Assembly: GCA_007695015.1 (NCBI GenBank)
Contig: REEN01000039.1
Span: forward strand, 1 to 41,517
DNA length: 41,517 nucleotides
Direction: 5' to 3'
Source of the DNA: Marinilabiliales bacterium
Lineage (GTDB): Bacteria > Bacteroidota > Bacteroidia > Bacteroidales > PUMT01
The stretch's first letter is position 1, and the number at the start of each line of letters is the position of its first letter. Shown piece after piece: positions 4,833 to 38,971 of this stretch. Both the position numbers and the translations under genes were made by a program. The notes under the pieces were generated by a model. That model saw only the letters and a program-made list of their open reading frames with translations, was not told the origin of the DNA and did not search any database.

Positions 4833-5807
4833 TCATAACAGGATCTCCCCAACATTTCCTGCAACCTCGACAGCCACGTTCCGGCCCTTTCCAGAAAAGA
4901 TCACCTTCCCCGATTTCCTCTCCGTCAGGGAAACGTCCATTTCTGACGACATGCTTTCTTCAATCCTGCCGTCCATATGGCCGCTTAAAGGTGATGCAAG
5001 AGCTGTTGCTGTATCGCGAAAAACAACCATCTCCAGCAGGTAAGTTTTGTTCTGCAAAACAATTTCCACCATACCTTCTTCAACAGCTACTTTTTTTAAT
5101 GATGAGCCGTTGTATGTTGTAAACCTTATAAGCCTGTCATGCAGCCATACGCCGGATATAAACCCTGTGAAAGAACCGCTCAGCCAGGGTATCTTGGCAA
5201 TTGAGGTTTTTAGGGAAACCCCGGGTTCAGAAAAGTGATTGGACTGAATCCATATATAGCCTTCAGGGAAAGAGCTGCCCCAATCCTTCTCAATATATCC
5301 CCTGCCACCTGTAAAATCAATCTTTTTTCCGGAGTATTCAAGCACGCCATCAATTGAGTGATCCATGCTTACAATCCCATGATAACACTGCATGAAGGGT
5401 GCAAATGTATATGGGCCCATAATACCCGGCGAATACCATGGTTTGGGCCAGGGAACATTTCCTGAAAAGTTAAGCTCCCCCCTTAGTCCCGGCAAGTCGA
5501 GTGATGCAGATCCCGCCGAGAAATGATTGCTGCCGATAACTACACTGAAATTTTCTGAGGATGGGATAAACTCAGAGAAATCAAACCTGTGATAATCTGC
5601 TTTTTTTCTGAATCCATCAAGGACCTGGACAAATGCATGACGGTTTCCGTCTTTATCCATTGCCACCCCGGGAATAATTGCAAAGGCGCTTTTCTCATCA
5701 GAGCTCAACACCTTGAAATACCAGCCTTCAAAATATGACCGGTTCCTTCCCCACCCCTGGTAAATTTCAGGATTGAAGAGAGACCTTAGCCTTCTGAATA
5801 CAGTCAT
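4833..5807 (-). CDS. Tocopherol cyclase-like family protein
   Basis: This 324-residue protein matches the tocopherol_cycl family seen in Bacteroidetes and Firmicutes. The N-terminal NPEIYQGWGRNRSYFEGWYF motif (about 12-31) and the later RGYIEKDWGSSFPEGYIW stretch are the family's hallmark regions. Plant tocopherol cyclase closes the chromanol ring, but bacterial relatives without a tocopherol pathway have no established reaction, so the name describes fold only. The start is supported by a strong AGGAGG at 5815-5820, 7 nt before the ATG, which is unusual for this phylum. The upstream region (5808-6253) is shared with the divergent DJ-1-like gene. Confidence 0.8.
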   Translation of the reverse strand: MTVFRRLRSLFNPEIYQGWGRNRSYFEGWYFKVLSSDEKSAFAIIPGVAMDKDGNRHAFVQVLDGFRKKADYHRFDFSEFIPSSENFSVVIGSNHFSAGSASLDLPGLRGELNFSGNVPWPKPWYSPGIMGPYTFAPFMQCYHGIVSMDHSIDGVLEYSGKKIDFTGGRGYIEKDWGSSFPEGYIWIQSNHFSEPGVSLKTSIAKIPWLSGSFTGFISGVWLHDRLIRFTTYNGSSLKKVAVEEGMVEIVLQNKTYLLEMVVFRDTATALASPLSGHMDGRIEESMSSEMDVSLTERKSGKVIFSGKGRNVAVEVAGNVGEILL

Positions 5808-5814
5808 CCTTCGC

Positions 5815-5820
5815 CCTCCT
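5815..5820 (-). promoter_or_regulatory. Strong Shine-Dalgarno of the tocopherol cyclase-like gene
   Basis: Read on the minus strand, AGGAGG lies 7 nt before the ATG at 5807. Most other genes here have no comparable site, so this one supports the chosen start and suggests efficient initiation. Confidence 0.65.
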
Positions 5821-6000
5821 TTCTGAACCAGTGGCCTTTGCTCGTGCCTGAAGTTATAAATACTTGCTCGCTCATATGATTATTTTTAAAATTACCAGTC
5901 CACACAAAGTTATTCTAAAATTATGTAATTGTCTTCATTAATAACTGCCCATGGAAGCTGCATCGGGATCTGATCAGCGAAAGGAAAAATTCAGCCAGGC

Positions 6001-6017
6001 TGTGGAATTATTCCACA
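6001..6017. promoter_or_regulatory. 17-bp perfect palindrome, possible operator
   Basis: The sequence TGTGGAATTATTCCACA has 8-bp arms around a single central T. It sits about 194 bp upstream of one divergent gene and 237 bp upstream of the other. Its form suits a homodimeric repressor or activator site. The cognate regulator is not evident in the window. Confidence 0.4.
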
Positions 6018-6253
6018 ATTCAGATTACAATCCCGCATATACATAATAGTTGCGGCTTCAATGCCAGGTGCCAAATATTTATACAAGACTCCTATAAGAC
6101 TGTACAATAACCTTTTAAGTACATGCGTTATCATATAGAAGTTACAAGTCTTATTTTTTGGCACAATTATTTACCCTTATAAATGGCAATATCCACCAGT
6201 AAATTATAAAAAGTCGCATCACAATCTAATATTAACCCTAAAACCGGAGTATT

Positions 6254-6919
6254 ATGAAGAAAATGATGATGAAATTCTTTCCCTTTCTGGGAATAATGCT
6301 TCTGCTTACCGGTTGTCCCGGAACAGTAGAAGAGATCGCTGAGGTAACGGAGCCTCTGCCGAGGCCCAATGTTGCAGTTCTGGTGGCCGAAGGCTTTCAT
6401 GACGGTGAAGCTTACATGCCTATTGGCTACCTGACTAACCAGGGGATGGATATTACGGTTATCGGACCGGAAACAGGTGTGGTAAAGGCTTATAACAGTG
6501 ACTTTACCATCGGCATTGAAAGAGCTGTTGCAGATGTTTCTGTCGACCAGTTCGATGCACTTGTACTACCCGGAGGAACAGCACCATCTGTCCTCAGAGA
6601 GATCCCTGAAGTTGTTGAGTTTGCCAGGGAATTCTTCGAAACCGGCAGGCCAGTGGCAGCAATATGCCATGGGCCCCAGGTCCTTGTCACCGCCGGAGTG
6701 CTTGACGGACTCACCTGTACCGCGGTTGGCGGGATCCAGGATGAGATCGAGGGAGCAGGTGCAACCTATGTTGACGAGGCCCTTGTGATTGACGGTCACC
6801 TGATCACCTCGCGAACCCCGCCTGATCTGGCAGTTTTCAGCCAGGCAATAGCAGAAGCAATAAACGAATCTTTTGATCCGACCGTGCCACGGGCAATTCC
6901 GCCCTATCCGGGAATGTAA
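6254..6919 (+). CDS. DJ-1/PfpI-family lipoprotein
   Basis: This 221-residue protein has a lipoprotein signal (LLLTGC, Cys21) followed by a DJ-1/PfpI domain from about residue 38. The domain shows the conserved acidic residue (GFHDGE, Glu52) and the nucleophile elbow AAICHGP with Cys138-His139. Family members act as deglycases, hydrolases, chaperones or proteases, and the exact activity cannot be chosen from sequence. Most relatives are cytoplasmic, so the lipobox, which predicts anchoring outside the cytoplasm, is the unusual point. The ATG at 6254 is the first in frame and gives a clean signal peptide. A tandem repeat and a terminator hairpin follow the stop. Confidence 0.88.
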   Translation: MKKMMMKFFPFLGIMLLLTGCPGTVEEIAEVTEPLPRPNVAVLVAEGFHDGEAYMPIGYLTNQGMDITVIGPETGVVKAYNSDFTIGIERAVADVSVDQFDALVLPGGTAPSVLREIPEVVEFAREFFETGRPVAAICHGPQVLVTAGVLDGLTCTAVGGIQDEIEGAGATYVDEALVIDGHLITSRTPPDLAVFSQAIAEAINESFDPTVPRAIPPYPGM

Positions 6920-35091: not shown

Positions 35092-35099
35092 TAAATTTG
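35092..35099 (+). promoter_or_regulatory. Possible -7 box (TAAATTTG) just before the M16 peptidase ATG
   Basis: TAAATTTG ends 6 nt before the ATG at 35106. A TTG lies 18 nt upstream of the box, close to the expected spacing. If real, transcription begins at or within a few bases of the start codon, giving a leaderless or nearly leaderless mRNA. Confidence 0.42.
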
Positions 35100-35105
35100 C
35101 GCCTT

Positions 35106-36326
35106 ATGACATTTCATACTCACGAATTTGACAACGGGATCAGGATCATACACTTCAGGGTGCCTTCACAGGTTGCTCATTGCGGACTGTATATCAATGC
35201 GGGGTCGAGGGATGAGGAGCCAGGAGAGCATGGCATTGCACATTTCATTGAGCATCTTTTCTTTAAGGGCACCAAGAAGAGGAGAGCCCACCATATTATA
35301 AGCAGGCTTGAGGCCGTCGGAGGAGAGATAAATGCATATACAGGCAAAGAGGAGACCTGCATATATTCATCTTTTATGCGTGAAGACTTTGAAAGATCCC
35401 TGGAACTTATATGTGACATGACCTTTCATTCGGTCTTTCCTGAAAAAGAGCTTAACAGGGAAAAACAGGTCATCATAGATGAGATACTGTCATATATGGA
35501 TAACCCGGCAGAGCAGATATTTGATGACTTTGAGGAGATCGTATTCTGCAATGACCCTATAGGCCGCAACATACTCGGCACTCCGAAACATCTGATGAAA
35601 TTTAACAGGGATGACATTATCAGGTTTATGAATAATAACTACCGGACCGACCAGATGGTCTTCGCTTCCGTTGGCGACCATGATTTCAACTCTGTTCTCA
35701 GGTATGCCAGAAAACATCTTGAGCCGGTAACCGCAAACAGGAAAGCCAGGATCCGCCAAAAGCACAACACCTATCACCCTGCATCAAGAATACTCAGCAG
35801 GAAAACCCACCAGGTGCACTTCATTACCGGCAAACGGGCATTCAACATGTATGACGGGAAAAGGATGACGATGGTAGTGCTGAATAATATCCTGGGTGGA
35901 CCCGGCATGAGTGCCAGGCTTAACCAGGCCCTCAGGGAGAGGAGCGGATTTGCATATAATGTTGAATCACACTACACCGCATGGTCCGACACTGGCATTT
36001 TCAATGTATACTTCGGATGCGACAGGGATAAAACTGACAGATGCCGGCATCTGTTAAGAAAGGAGTTCTCTGCCCTGAGAAACAAAAGGCTGAGTCCGGT
36101 TCAGCTTAACCGGGCAAAGCGGCAGCTGAAAGGACAACTGGCAATCGGCTGGGAAAGCAGGGAGAATCTTATGATGGCTATAGGCAAGAGCTACCTTCTT
36201 TTCAACCGGGTTGATACGGTGGAGGAGGTATACCGGAAAATTGATGCTGTAACTGCCATGGATATTATGGATGTTGCCAATTATATACTGGACCCGGGAT
36301 CACTCTCTGAACTTGTTTACACCTGA
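35106..36326 (+). CDS. M16-family zinc metallopeptidase
   Basis: This 406-residue protein has the inverted zinc motif HFIEH (His46, Glu49, His50) and the third ligand Glu126 in REKQVIIDEI, so the active site looks complete. An RxxxxY-type C-terminal region (ALRERSGFAYNVES) supports the processing-peptidase-like subgroup found in many bacteria. No signal peptide is seen, so it probably acts in the cytoplasm. The ATG at 35106 is the first; a TTG at 35097 falls in the possible promoter box. The downstream methyltransferase frame touches its stop (TGATG). Confidence 0.9.
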   Translation: MTFHTHEFDNGIRIIHFRVPSQVAHCGLYINAGSRDEEPGEHGIAHFIEHLFFKGTKKRRAHHIISRLEAVGGEINAYTGKEETCIYSSFMREDFERSLELICDMTFHSVFPEKELNREKQVIIDEILSYMDNPAEQIFDDFEEIVFCNDPIGRNILGTPKHLMKFNRDDIIRFMNNNYRTDQMVFASVGDHDFNSVLRYARKHLEPVTANRKARIRQKHNTYHPASRILSRKTHQVHFITGKRAFNMYDGKRMTMVVLNNILGGPGMSARLNQALRERSGFAYNVESHYTAWSDTGIFNVYFGCDRDKTDRCRHLLRKEFSALRNKRLSPVQLNRAKRQLKGQLAIGWESRENLMMAIGKSYLLFNRVDTVEEVYRKIDAVTAMDIMDVANYILDPGSLSELVYT

Positions 36327-36403
36327 TGCCGGCTATTCTGGCAGGATTATGCTGCCACGGTGCAAAACCTGACCAATATTATATAACATTAAAAGCTGTA
36401 ACC

Positions 36404-37048
36404 ATGTCATCAGATCATGAGCAAAACAGAGAAAAATATATCATTGCCCACTCAACACCTGAAGATCCGTTGCTTTCAGGACTTAACAGGGAGACACACC
36501 TGAAGTTGCTTAACCCTGAGATGCTCTCAGGGCACTACCAGGGAAAGCTCCTTGAAATGATCAGCCTTATGATCGCCCCGTCAAGAATTCTGGAAATCGG
36601 CACCTACTCCGGGTACTCAGCCATATGCCTTGCAAGGGGACTTGGTGAAACAGGTGAGCTTCATACTATCGAGAAAAATGATGAGATAAGGGATTTTGCA
36701 TTGAAATACATTAGGGAGACGGGCCTTGAGAACCGTATAATAATGCATACCGGCGACGCACTGGAAATAATTCCGTCGCTGACCGGGCCGTTTGATCTGG
36801 TTTTTATTGACGGTGACAAATCGGAATATATCCGGTATTACGACCTTGCTTTCCCGAAGGTCAGAAAAGGCGGAATAATAATTGCCGACAATGTATTATG
36901 GTACAACAAGGTTTACAAACCCGAATTCATAAATGATGAATTTACACGTTACATGTATGAGTTCAACAGGAAGATTGCAAATGACACCCGAGTTGAGAAC
37001 CTGTTATTGCCTGTCAGGGACGGACTTATGATTATAAGGAAAAAATAG
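36404..37048 (+). CDS. SAM-dependent O-methyltransferase (COMT-like family)
   Basis: This 214-residue protein has the class I methyltransferase motifs: LEIGTYSGYSAICLA (motif I, about 63-77), the acidic motif II in LHTIEKND, and FDLVFIDGDKSEY with metal-binding Asp residues, followed by IIADNVLW. This is the cation-dependent catechol-type O-methyltransferase family. The acceptor is unknown. The ATG at 36404 gives the usual family N-terminus; a frame opening at 36326 overlaps the peptidase stop (TGATG) and would add 26 unrecognised residues, so it stays an alternative. Confidence 0.88.
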   Translation: MSSDHEQNREKYIIAHSTPEDPLLSGLNRETHLKLLNPEMLSGHYQGKLLEMISLMIAPSRILEIGTYSGYSAICLARGLGETGELHTIEKNDEIRDFALKYIRETGLENRIIMHTGDALEIIPSLTGPFDLVFIDGDKSEYIRYYDLAFPKVRKGGIIIADNVLWYNKVYKPEFINDEFTRYMYEFNRKIANDTRVENLLLPVRDGLMIIRKK

Positions 37049-37153
37049 CCCCCGTTACCCCGGCAATAAAACTTTTTTTTGTTTTATTTGTTACTGTTAA
37101 TAGTTATACACGGCGATCTAAAAAAAAACCTTCATATCCAGCCGCTACTTGCC

Positions 37154-37242: not shown

Positions 37243-38127
37243 ATGGCCAGCTATTCAATAAAAGACCTTGAGGAGCTTTCCGGAATAAAAGCCCATACAA
37301 TAAGAATATGGGAAAAAAGGTATGGTATAGTGGTTCCGGCCCGGACAGATACAAATATCAGGCTGTACAGTGACAATGACCTTAAAAAACTTCTCAACAT
37401 TTCCATACTTAACAGGTACGGATTGAAAATATCACATCTTGCCCGGATGGACGAGGAGGAGCTTAAAGATAAGGTGATTCACATATCAAGGGAATCCACA
37501 GACACCGGATTGCAAATAGAGAACCTGATTATATCAATGCTTGAACTGGATGAGTGGAAGTTCGACAAGATACTGAACGATACTATAATAAAACTAGGCT
37601 TTGAAGATACCCTGGTGCGACTAATGCATCCGTTTTTTGAAAAGATCGGGTTGCTGTGGCAAACCGGATCTATCAATCCCGCCCAGGAACACTTTGTATC
37701 AAATCTTCTCCGCCAGAAACTGATCGTTGCAATTGATGGCCAGGCGCCTGTACAACGCGACAATCCGGTCAACTTCATACTTTTTCTTCACGAAAGTGAA
37801 TTTCATGAGCTGGGGCTCCTTTTCTACTCATATCTGCTGAAAAAGAACGGCATTAAGGTAATATATCTGGGACAGGCCGTTCCCTTTGATGATCTTGAGA
37901 AGATCACAAAGATCCAGAAAGCGGAGTATTTCCTCACATCCTTCACAACAGGAATTACTGAAGGAAACCTTGTAAAATATCTTCAGAACCTGTCATCGTC
38001 CTTCCCGAACCACAGGATTTTGTATACCGGACTGCAAACGGCAAAAATAAACGGGAGCCTTCCCCAAAATCTTGTCAAAATTGAATCGGTAACCCATTTC
38101 AGGCAGTACATAGGCTCAATCCGCTAG
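37243..38127 (+). CDS. MerR-family regulator with B12-binding domain, CarH-like photoreceptor
   Basis: This 294-residue protein has an N-terminal MerR winged helix (YSIKDLEELSGIKAHTIRIWEKRYG, about 4-28; RLYSDNDLKKL), a helical bundle (about 85-165) and a cobalamin-binding Rossmann domain. The bundle carries Trp139 followed by nine residues and Glu149-His150, the Wx9EH pattern of CarH photoreceptors. The B12 domain has ExHxxG with ligand His188 (Glu186 in place of the usual Asp). In CarH, adenosylcobalamin drives tetramer formation and DNA binding in the dark, and light breaks it. Light-sensing here is inferred from conserved residues. The neighbouring ECF sigma gene is the likely target. Confidence 0.88.
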   Translation: MASYSIKDLEELSGIKAHTIRIWEKRYGIVVPARTDTNIRLYSDNDLKKLLNISILNRYGLKISHLARMDEEELKDKVIHISRESTDTGLQIENLIISMLELDEWKFDKILNDTIIKLGFEDTLVRLMHPFFEKIGLLWQTGSINPAQEHFVSNLLRQKLIVAIDGQAPVQRDNPVNFILFLHESEFHELGLLFYSYLLKKNGIKVIYLGQAVPFDDLEKITKIQKAEYFLTSFTTGITEGNLVKYLQNLSSSFPNHRILYTGLQTAKINGSLPQNLVKIESVTHFRQYIGSIR

Positions 38128-38169
38128 AGTATCAGCCCTCCTGGCCACTTACAAGCGCGCATTACCCAT

Positions 38170-38195
38170 CCGGGCAAGATAATATTGCTTGCCGG
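38170..38195 (+). terminator. Weak hairpin after the CarH-like gene
   Basis: CCGGGCAAG and CTTGCCGG pair with one bulge around a 9-nt loop. No T tract follows, so it may be only a weak terminator or an RNA-stabilising hairpin. Confidence 0.3.
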
Positions 38196-38233
38196 TAAAA
38201 CTTATATTGCCCCGGTTTCCCTTTAACAATTAG

Positions 38234-38257
38234 CTGATATAAGGGGCCCCTGATATA
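38234..38257. repeat. CTGATATA direct repeat around a GC palindrome
   Basis: CTGATATA occurs at 38234-38241 and 38250-38257, a 16-bp period, flanking the perfect palindrome AGGGGCCCCT (38242-38251). It sits in otherwise AT-rich DNA about 140 bp before the sigma promoter and could be a binding site. Confidence 0.45.
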
Positions 38258-38391
38258 CGCATGCCCAAACCTTTGTTCATTTTTTCTTGTTTTCTATTAA
38301 TCATATTGTTATTTTAAATCATTCTATTTTACTTTTATGCAGTCATTTACAGCTTATTTAACATTTATTTAGACTTTTTCTTATTAAAACA

Positions 38392-38423
38392 TTTGGACAC
38401 TGTTCATTTTGTGCTTATATTTG
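38392..38423 (+). promoter_or_regulatory. Bacteroidetes-type promoter of the sigma-factor gene
   Basis: TTTG (38392-38395) and TATATTTG (38416-38423) are separated by 20 nt, an excellent consensus match. The spacer contains CATTTTGTGC (38405-38414), also found upstream of the CarH-like gene. MerR-family proteins often bind in promoter spacers, so this is a plausible control point. The leader would be about 28 nt. Confidence 0.75.
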
Positions 38424-38455
38424 TTAAACATTTATAACCTAAAATCTGAACAACA

Positions 38456-38971
38456 ATGACTGCAATAGAATTCAACCATCAGCTCGTAACCCTCGAGAAA
38501 AATCTTGAAAGGTTTGCATACAGCCTTACATCCAACCATGAAGATGCAAGGGACCTTGTTCAGGAAACATTTCTAAAGGCATTAACATACAGGGAACAAT
38601 TTACAGACCAGTCTAATTTAAAAGCCTGGACATTCACTATTTTGAAGAACACTTTCATAAATAATTACAGGAAGGCTGTAAAACAGAATACGACGTTTGA
38701 CAACACAAAAGATTTGTACTTTCTAAATAAAGCCGGCGATTCGGCCGACTCAAAACCTGAAGGTAACATCTCACTCGAAGAGATCAACAGAAAAGTCGAA
38801 GAACTTGATGACGAGTTTAAAATCCCATTCAAAATGCATACTTCAGGCTACAAGTACAAGGAGATCGCCGAAGAGATGGATCTGAACATAGGGACCGTAA
38901 AGAGCAGAATATTCTTCAGCAGGAAAAAGCTGATGAAGGCACTCGAAGATTACAATCCCGTCAATCAATGA
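38456..38971 (+). CDS. ECF-type RNA polymerase sigma-70 factor
   Basis: This 171-residue sigma factor has region 2 (about 18-85, with SNHEDARDLVQETFLKAL and SNLKAWTFTILKNTFINNYR) and region 4 (about 110-165, with YKYKEIAEEMDLNIGTVKSRIFFSRKKL). No anti-sigma gene follows. As I recall, a CarH/LitR-type MerR gene next to such a sigma gene is seen in other Bacteroidetes beside carotenoid genes, where the pair may form a light-response module. Here no crt gene is in the window. Its consensus promoter overlaps a candidate operator. It is convergent with the DUF4783 gene. Confidence 0.93.
   Translation: MTAIEFNHQLVTLEKNLERFAYSLTSNHEDARDLVQETFLKALTYREQFTDQSNLKAWTFTILKNTFINNYRKAVKQNTTFDNTKDLYFLNKAGDSADSKPEGNISLEEINRKVEELDDEFKIPFKMHTSGYKYKEIAEEMDLNIGTVKSRIFFSRKKLMKALEDYNPVNQ

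Follow-up and report, generated by a model that had tools for sequence, protein, structure and literature searches.

A CarH-like B12-binding regulator and an adjoining ECF sigma factor gene in a Marinilabiliales bacterium, with a conserved predicted operator and a candidate photoprotection regulon

The closest described system is that of Streptomyces coelicolor, in which LitR controls litS and the sigma-LitS holoenzyme transcribes crtE, with light-activated LitR promoting litS transcription (PMC12705666); a reference title names LitS as an ECF sigma factor. The Thermus thermophilus CarH protein (TtCarH) binds three tandem 11-bp direct repeats with the operator consensus nAnnTnnACAn (PMC8156234). 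A light signature of GxxW, EH, GxxH and GxxxP is described for B12 photoreceptors in PMC11796333, where the Gly of GxxH in CtMerR is reported to make a main-chain contact only, the photocobilins carry a biliverdin-binding domain, and CtMerR (Arg) and SasPcob (Gln), neither of which has an equivalent of TtCarH His132, still respond to green light. PMC9758184 sets out LitR classes I-V and nowhere mentions 'Bacteroid-' in its main text; light-induced carotenoid is reported for a Chryseobacterium by a mechanism given there as unknown (PMC7064467). Among the titles and abstracts listed for CarH/LitR in Bacteroidota and for ECF sigma factors, no work was recognised on the pair described here or on its operator, promoter or regulon in Bacteroidota. 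Circuits of this kind are already known from LitR/LitS; what is new lies in the control DNA.

The window is the whole 41,517-nucleotide stretch of DNA that was analysed, contig REEN01000039.1 of a Marinilabiliales bacterium. A sequence-only reading had placed in it a MerR-type regulator gene, an ECF sigma factor gene with its own promoter, and methyltransferase, DUF4783 and rlmH genes as neighbours; both genes lie at the coordinates given for them, the sigma gene has the promoter, and Pfam confirms the neighbours as O-methyltransferase, DUF4783 and RlmH. The features of the locus are as follows.

37070..37093, plus strand: block AACTTTTTTTTGTTTTATTTGTTA, 5' of the regulator gene and conserved in the genus; probably the regulator promoter region
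37243..38127, plus strand: MerR-type B12-binding regulator, CarH/LitR-like, 294 aa (Pfam/NCBIfam, residue alignment, AlphaFold2, Foldseek)
38274..38303, plus strand: weaker predicted operator O2 (repeat D1), 11/16 to the family consensus, 127 bp 5' of O1
38350..38379, plus strand: block CAGCTTATTTAACATTTATTTAGACTTTTT, between O2 and O1, strongly conserved in the genus
38392..38395, plus strand: TTTG, the -33 element of the promoter of the sigma gene
38401..38430, plus strand: predicted operator O1, TGTTCATT-N14-GTTAAACA, which agrees with the family consensus at 13/16 and covers the spacer and -7 box of the sigma promoter
38416..38423, plus strand: TATATTTG, the -7 element of the same promoter, separated from TTTG by N20
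38456..38971, plus strand: ECF sigma factor, 171 aa (Pfam Sigma70_r2 6.3e-15, Sigma70_r4_2 2.6e-10)

The arrangement, which resembles that of LitR and LitS in having an ECF sigma gene beside the regulator, is common in the family. One scan of genome contigs recovers at least 576 CarH-like relatives in Bacteroidota, and a same-strand sigma gene lies within 1.5 kb downstream of the regulator in 84 of 110 loci, the other 26 possibly including loci cut off by contig ends. In one locus (L080) two CarH-like regulator genes stand in tandem (5023-5937 and 5986-6879) before a single sigma gene. Of the 110 loci, 28 have M16 peptidase and O-methyltransferase genes 5' of the regulator (window 35097-37048), and 21 of these 28 belong to L001-L030, a conserved synteny. 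The genes next after the sigma gene (DUF4783 and rlmH) include no anti-sigma gene, and the amount of sigma factor would thus probably be set by release of the regulator.

The regulator has an N-terminal MerR_1 DNA-binding domain (PF13411, 1.7e-14), as do CarH and class I LitR proteins, and a B12-binding_2 domain (PF02607, 4.3e-09). The marker residues claimed for it, Trp139-x9-Glu149-His150 and Glu186-x-His188-x-x-Gly191, are all present, giving it the Wx9EH motif and the lower axial His (ExHxxG) of CarH and class I LitR. Trp139, Glu149, His150 and His188 align with TtCarH W131, E141, H142 and H177 and are conserved in 110, 107, 108 and 105 of 110 relatives respectively. Two further positions, neither pointed out by the sequence-only reading, depart from the light-sensing pattern. 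Gln140 occupies the place of the TtCarH bis-His switch residue His132, so that the bis-His pair is absent (110 relatives: Q 92, L 12, M 5, H 1), and Ser185 replaces the Gly of GxxH in the published signature (G 44, N 41, S 4, others 21); the signature therefore reads GLLW, EH and GQAVP, but SEFH. The best NCBIfam match is the CarH equivalog NF052513 at 94.6 bits, far below its 400-bit cut-off.

An AlphaFold2 model of the regulator, built on 64 aligned relatives (pLDDT 92.6, pTM 0.85), has the four-helix plus Rossmann B12-binding fold of CarH and class I LitR. Alignment with CarH/LitR structures had been proposed as a check, and the best Foldseek matches are indeed to TtCarH (5c8d, E 7.0e-16), with 22% identity over the fold alignment. 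When the B12 part is compared using VIA-align the top rows are the light-sensing B12 domains of CtMerR (8jbt; Z 18.7, rmsd 3.5, 220 aligned), TtCarH (8c73; Z 17.9, rmsd 2.6, 197 aligned) and photocobilin (8j2w; Z 17.8, rmsd 2.7, 202 aligned), and methionine synthase scores lower than these three (1bmt; Z 15.6, rmsd 3.0, 211 aligned). Two other TtCarH/LitR entries, 3whp (Z 14.5, rmsd 3.9, 189 aligned) and the light-state structure 5c8f (Z 15.2, rmsd 12.2, 267 aligned), lie at or below methionine synthase, and the fold by itself is thus no proof of light sensing.

TtCarH H132A is reported to be mostly tetrameric in light, in a paper that also refers to disassembly as reported earlier (PMC10442372); as the regulator has Gln140 for His132, its switch cannot match that of TtCarH in detail. 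His132 is not universal among light-responsive B12 domains, as Chloracidobacterium CtMerR and the Saccharothrix photocobilin SasPcob illustrate, and its loss is therefore compatible with a photoreceptor, though one predicted to have another light state. SasPcob has the same Gln as the regulator, whereas CtMerR has Arg. Photocobilins are not known to have a MerR DNA-binding domain. With the regulator comes the question of how a B12 photoreceptor can switch when the bis-His ligand is missing.

The gap between the regulator and sigma genes contains a family-wide predicted operator, TGTTTAAC-N14-GTTAAACA, which the sequence-only reading missed. Its half-sites, GTTAAACA/TGTTTAAC, occur in 53 of 81 regulator-sigma gaps compared with 13 of 460 regions upstream of other genes; counted by length, the gaps have 96 such places in 26.9 kb and the sequence elsewhere 61 in 943 kb. 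Operators matching at 14 or more of 16 positions are present at spacing 22 in 50 of 80 regions, falling to 11 at the next-best spacing of 23, and there are 31 spacing-22 pairs with no more than one mismatch compared with none in 200 dinucleotide shuffles. Near-duplicates L031, L050 and L097 are left out of the counts over 81 and 80 regions and of those for the merR promoter below, and one short or ambiguous region is also left out of the spacing count (hence 80 of 81). The nine genus genomes searched contain ten exact matches, eight of which lie in the regulator-sigma gap. In two loci in which no sigma gene was found (L105 and L106) the same operator pair stands immediately before crtI, and the motif is thus tied to the regulator and not to the sigma gene. 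Further MerR operators in the window's genome number 7 compared with 6 for the reversed control, and hence no more direct targets are claimed.

The position of O1 on the spacer and -7 box is that of a repressor and suggests that the regulator would repress the sigma promoter through this conserved predicted operator, unlike light-activated LitR, which promotes litS transcription in S. coelicolor. The best-matching second site lies 126 or 127 bp away at 11 evaluable genus loci (L007 is not evaluable, the called start of its sigma ORF being too far upstream). Among 30 distances between operator pairs (13/16 or better, 28 loci), 13 are 59-64 bp and five are 126-127 bp, and the remaining 12 are scattered over 101-200 bp; whole-turn spacing is therefore a tendency and not a rule. 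Distances of 63 and 126 bp correspond to about 6 and 12 helical turns and would be compatible with DNA looping by a tetramer like that of CarH, although the other distances do not all fit.

Tandem 11-bp direct repeats such as those of CarH had been spotted by eye in the genus as a possible operator, but family-wide their periodicity is weak, and the inverted pair at 22 bp, sometimes doubled, takes their place; GTTAAACA agrees with T5 and A8C9A10 of the CarH consensus. The block upstream of the sigma gene that was read as 11-bp repeats is nonetheless conserved in the genus. The block at 38350-38379 contains TTATTTAACAT/TTATTTAGACT, and its TTATTTAG is present in 34 of 81 regions compared with 5 of 460 in the background and is enriched in other families too; it is possibly the site of another factor. 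A further repeat, ATTTTGTGC, with four copies in the window, three of them near the pair, was set aside, the shorter TTTTGTGC near the pair being common within the genus only to the nearest relative, L002.

The sequence-only reading noted that no carotenoid genes were in view, which holds inside the window only: crtI, crtB, idi and lycopene cyclase genes form an operon on another contig of the same genome, C58 (Pfam Amino_oxidase, SQS_PSY, NUDIX and Lycopene_cyc). Its suggestion that the sigma regulon is unlike pigment synthesis is not supported: a candidate ECF promoter lies 29 nt before this crtI. Of the two kinds of gene it proposed to search for, crt genes are thus found, and the photolyase FAD domain (PF03441) has no match in the window's genome, so that photolyase is rejected as an output there. 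Among the 110 loci crt genes are found in 18 and photolyase genes likewise in 18, many loci being too short to show either (genes were found by clustering and named from representatives), and wherever a locus holds both a crt and a sigma gene (16 of 16) the crt gene follows at -4 to 75 nt. Across 44 order-level genomes a full-length regulator match co-occurs with crtB (12/16 vs 6/28, Fisher p 0.001), counting only PF00494 matches below 1e-35 and leaving out weaker ones in G022 and G037; co-occurrence with photolyase in the order is not significant (8/16 vs 8/28, p 0.20). A close crtI is present in 6 of 13 genus genomes, and six of the 12 with the regulator-sigma pair lack one, several of these assemblies being incomplete.

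The candidate promoter, TGAACAAA-N14-GTTTAA, was seen by eye upstream of crtI in three genomes, its link to the window sigma factor being one that we infer. Allowing one mismatch, there are 114 matches in 13 genus genomes compared with 26 for the reversed pattern, and 11 compared with 2 in the window's genome; the exact core, TGAACAAA-N14-GTTT, has 64 matches in the 13 genomes and its reversed control 3. The exact promoter lies 26-33 nt before crtI in all six genus genomes with a close crtI, of which the G011 contig holds just the start of the gene. In the window's genome seven of the 11 sites lie 25-31 nt before an ORF (crtI, SOUL, DsbD, SDR, Ppx, metallophosphatase and UbiA). The other four are 62-280 nt from theirs (a secreted W-repeat protein and, by reading of their sequences, 5'-nucleotidase-like, Fur-like and RpoD-like genes) and may be chance matches. 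Searching with the exact core extends the set by a fasciclin lipoprotein and, as named from their sequences, a TonB-receptor-like gene and perhaps thioredoxin; two of five exact-core sites examined in this genome fall inside open frames.

Among 1130 genes, leaving out loci fetched by pattern searches (L136-163, L172-173 and L175-224), the exact core lies 18-80 nt upstream of 14: five crtI, one SOUL and eight fasciclin genes. The fasciclin and SOUL searches were themselves prompted by pattern matches, and six of the eight fasciclin genes were absent from the earlier matches with up to one mismatch. Of 12 genomes with fasciclin matches, six have the exact core, and a seventh has it with one mismatch, at the multi-domain fasciclin gene. 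The predicted regulon does look wider than pigment, including fasciclin, SOUL, TonB-like, DsbD and other genes, and suggests that fasciclin and SOUL proteins may take part in photoprotection. In the window itself there is no candidate promoter with 0 or 1 mismatch, and of two with 2 mismatches (25532 and 32941), both away from the pair, neither precedes merR or the sigma gene; with up to 3 mismatches there are 7 sites where 4.75 are expected.

Reading of this promoter by the window sigma factor is the weakest step. The genome has 15 sigma-like matches, 14 besides the window sigma factor, and another ECF sigma factor, of envelope or oxidative stress, could read TGAACAAA-N14-GTTTAA while the window sigma factor serves a different regulon. 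Beyond the genus the exact core only slightly exceeds the control, whether or not the regulator is present: 47 matches compared with 25 in 16 order-level genomes that have it, 64 compared with 57 in 28 that do not, and 7 compared with 4 in three genomes of the same family. We nonetheless consider another sigma factor unlikely, given the crt genes directly 3' of the sigma gene in every locus with both. In relatives, moreover, the candidate promoter precedes merR itself in 13 of 94 cases compared with 6 of 526 other genes, a signal that is partly general composition, as a scrambled -35 still gives 7 of 94 and spacing 18 gives 10 of 94 compared with 10 of 526. A photolyase gene divergent from merR in L038 also has the promoter before it (14/14), as do fasciclin genes of two further Bacteroidota (13/14 in L066; 12/14, at spacing 15, in L067). 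The one genus genome without the regulator and a close sigma gene, G001, also has neither a close crtI nor a fasciclin match (75% complete); it nevertheless has 3 exact-core matches compared with 0 for the control.

That B12 supply or cobalt redox state, and not light, is the signal for the regulator would accord with the replacement of His132 in 109 of 110 relatives and of the GxxH Gly in 66 of 110, but the presence of crt genes in 18 loci and of photolyase genes in 18, together with the green-light responses of CtMerR and SasPcob (PMC11796333), make this quite improbable. Hardest to credit is direct binding of the MerR protein before crtI, fasciclin and SOUL, with the sigma factor incidental: the six-base half-sites TGAACA and TGTTTA do resemble those of the operator, turned outward across a similar gap, and the operator does precede crtI in L105 and L106, but the housekeeping box TAnnTTTG is found in only 2 of 37 aligned sites (hand-picked from the matches), the 25-31 nt distances are promoter-like, and exact operators in the genus sit mostly in the regulator-sigma gap.

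A LitR/LitS-like light circuit with a photoprotection regulon best explains the pair, and we hold it to be probable, if well short of assured. Fold, ligand residues and the placing of an operator over the sigma promoter support the proposal of the sequence-only reading that a CarH-like regulator acts through the ECF sigma factor, and the B12 adenosyltransferase PF01923 present in the same genome is counted in its favor; the imperfect agreement of O1 (13/16) and O2 (11/16) with the consensus and the SxxH in place of GxxH count against it. In the dark the AdoCbl-loaded regulator, as a CarH-like oligomer, would bind O1 and probably also O2, about 12 helical turns away, and would block transcription of the sigma gene from its housekeeping promoter. 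Light would cleave the Co-C bond, the regulator would release the DNA, and sigma factor would be produced; RNA polymerase carrying it would then read TGAACAAA-N14-GTTTAA promoters in trans, at the crt operon and at envelope, haem and thiol protection genes.

This predicted circuit is like that of S. coelicolor in pairing a B12-dependent MerR-type photosensor with an ECF-type sigma factor, and differs in that the crt genes are on another contig, the predicted regulon is wider, and the operator and promoter sequences are derived for this Bacteroidota group. With T. thermophilus CarH the regulator shares domain order, fold, Wx9EH and the lower-ligand His, and differs in having the sigma gene as target and an inverted operator pair in place of three direct repeats. 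More tentatively, and with doubts that outweigh our confidence, we propose that Bacteroidota include a lineage of Gln-type B12 photoreceptors lacking His132 that occupy inverted operators in pairs spaced by whole helical turns (about 63 or 126/127 bp) and loop the DNA over the sigma gene, and that light would free an ECF regulon that guards the whole envelope (fasciclin, SOUL, TonB-like and DsbD) and makes carotenoid, with the switch driving the envelope part alone in genus members that have no close crtI. O1, O2 and the crtI promoter are exact short targets for testing light control in Bacteroidota.

Three genus genomes have a second close sigma copy on another contig, with 69-77% identity (G006:C137:3206-3709, G008:C161:8649-9149 and G011:C266:6404-6910). 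In G000 and G007 a secreted protein composed of near-identical W-rich repeats (e.g. ADWMVDLSTWNVFAFEEATEAEPYL) is encoded behind the candidate ECF promoter; it is found on the minus strand of L173, at about 2629 in reversed coordinates, and in L216/L314.
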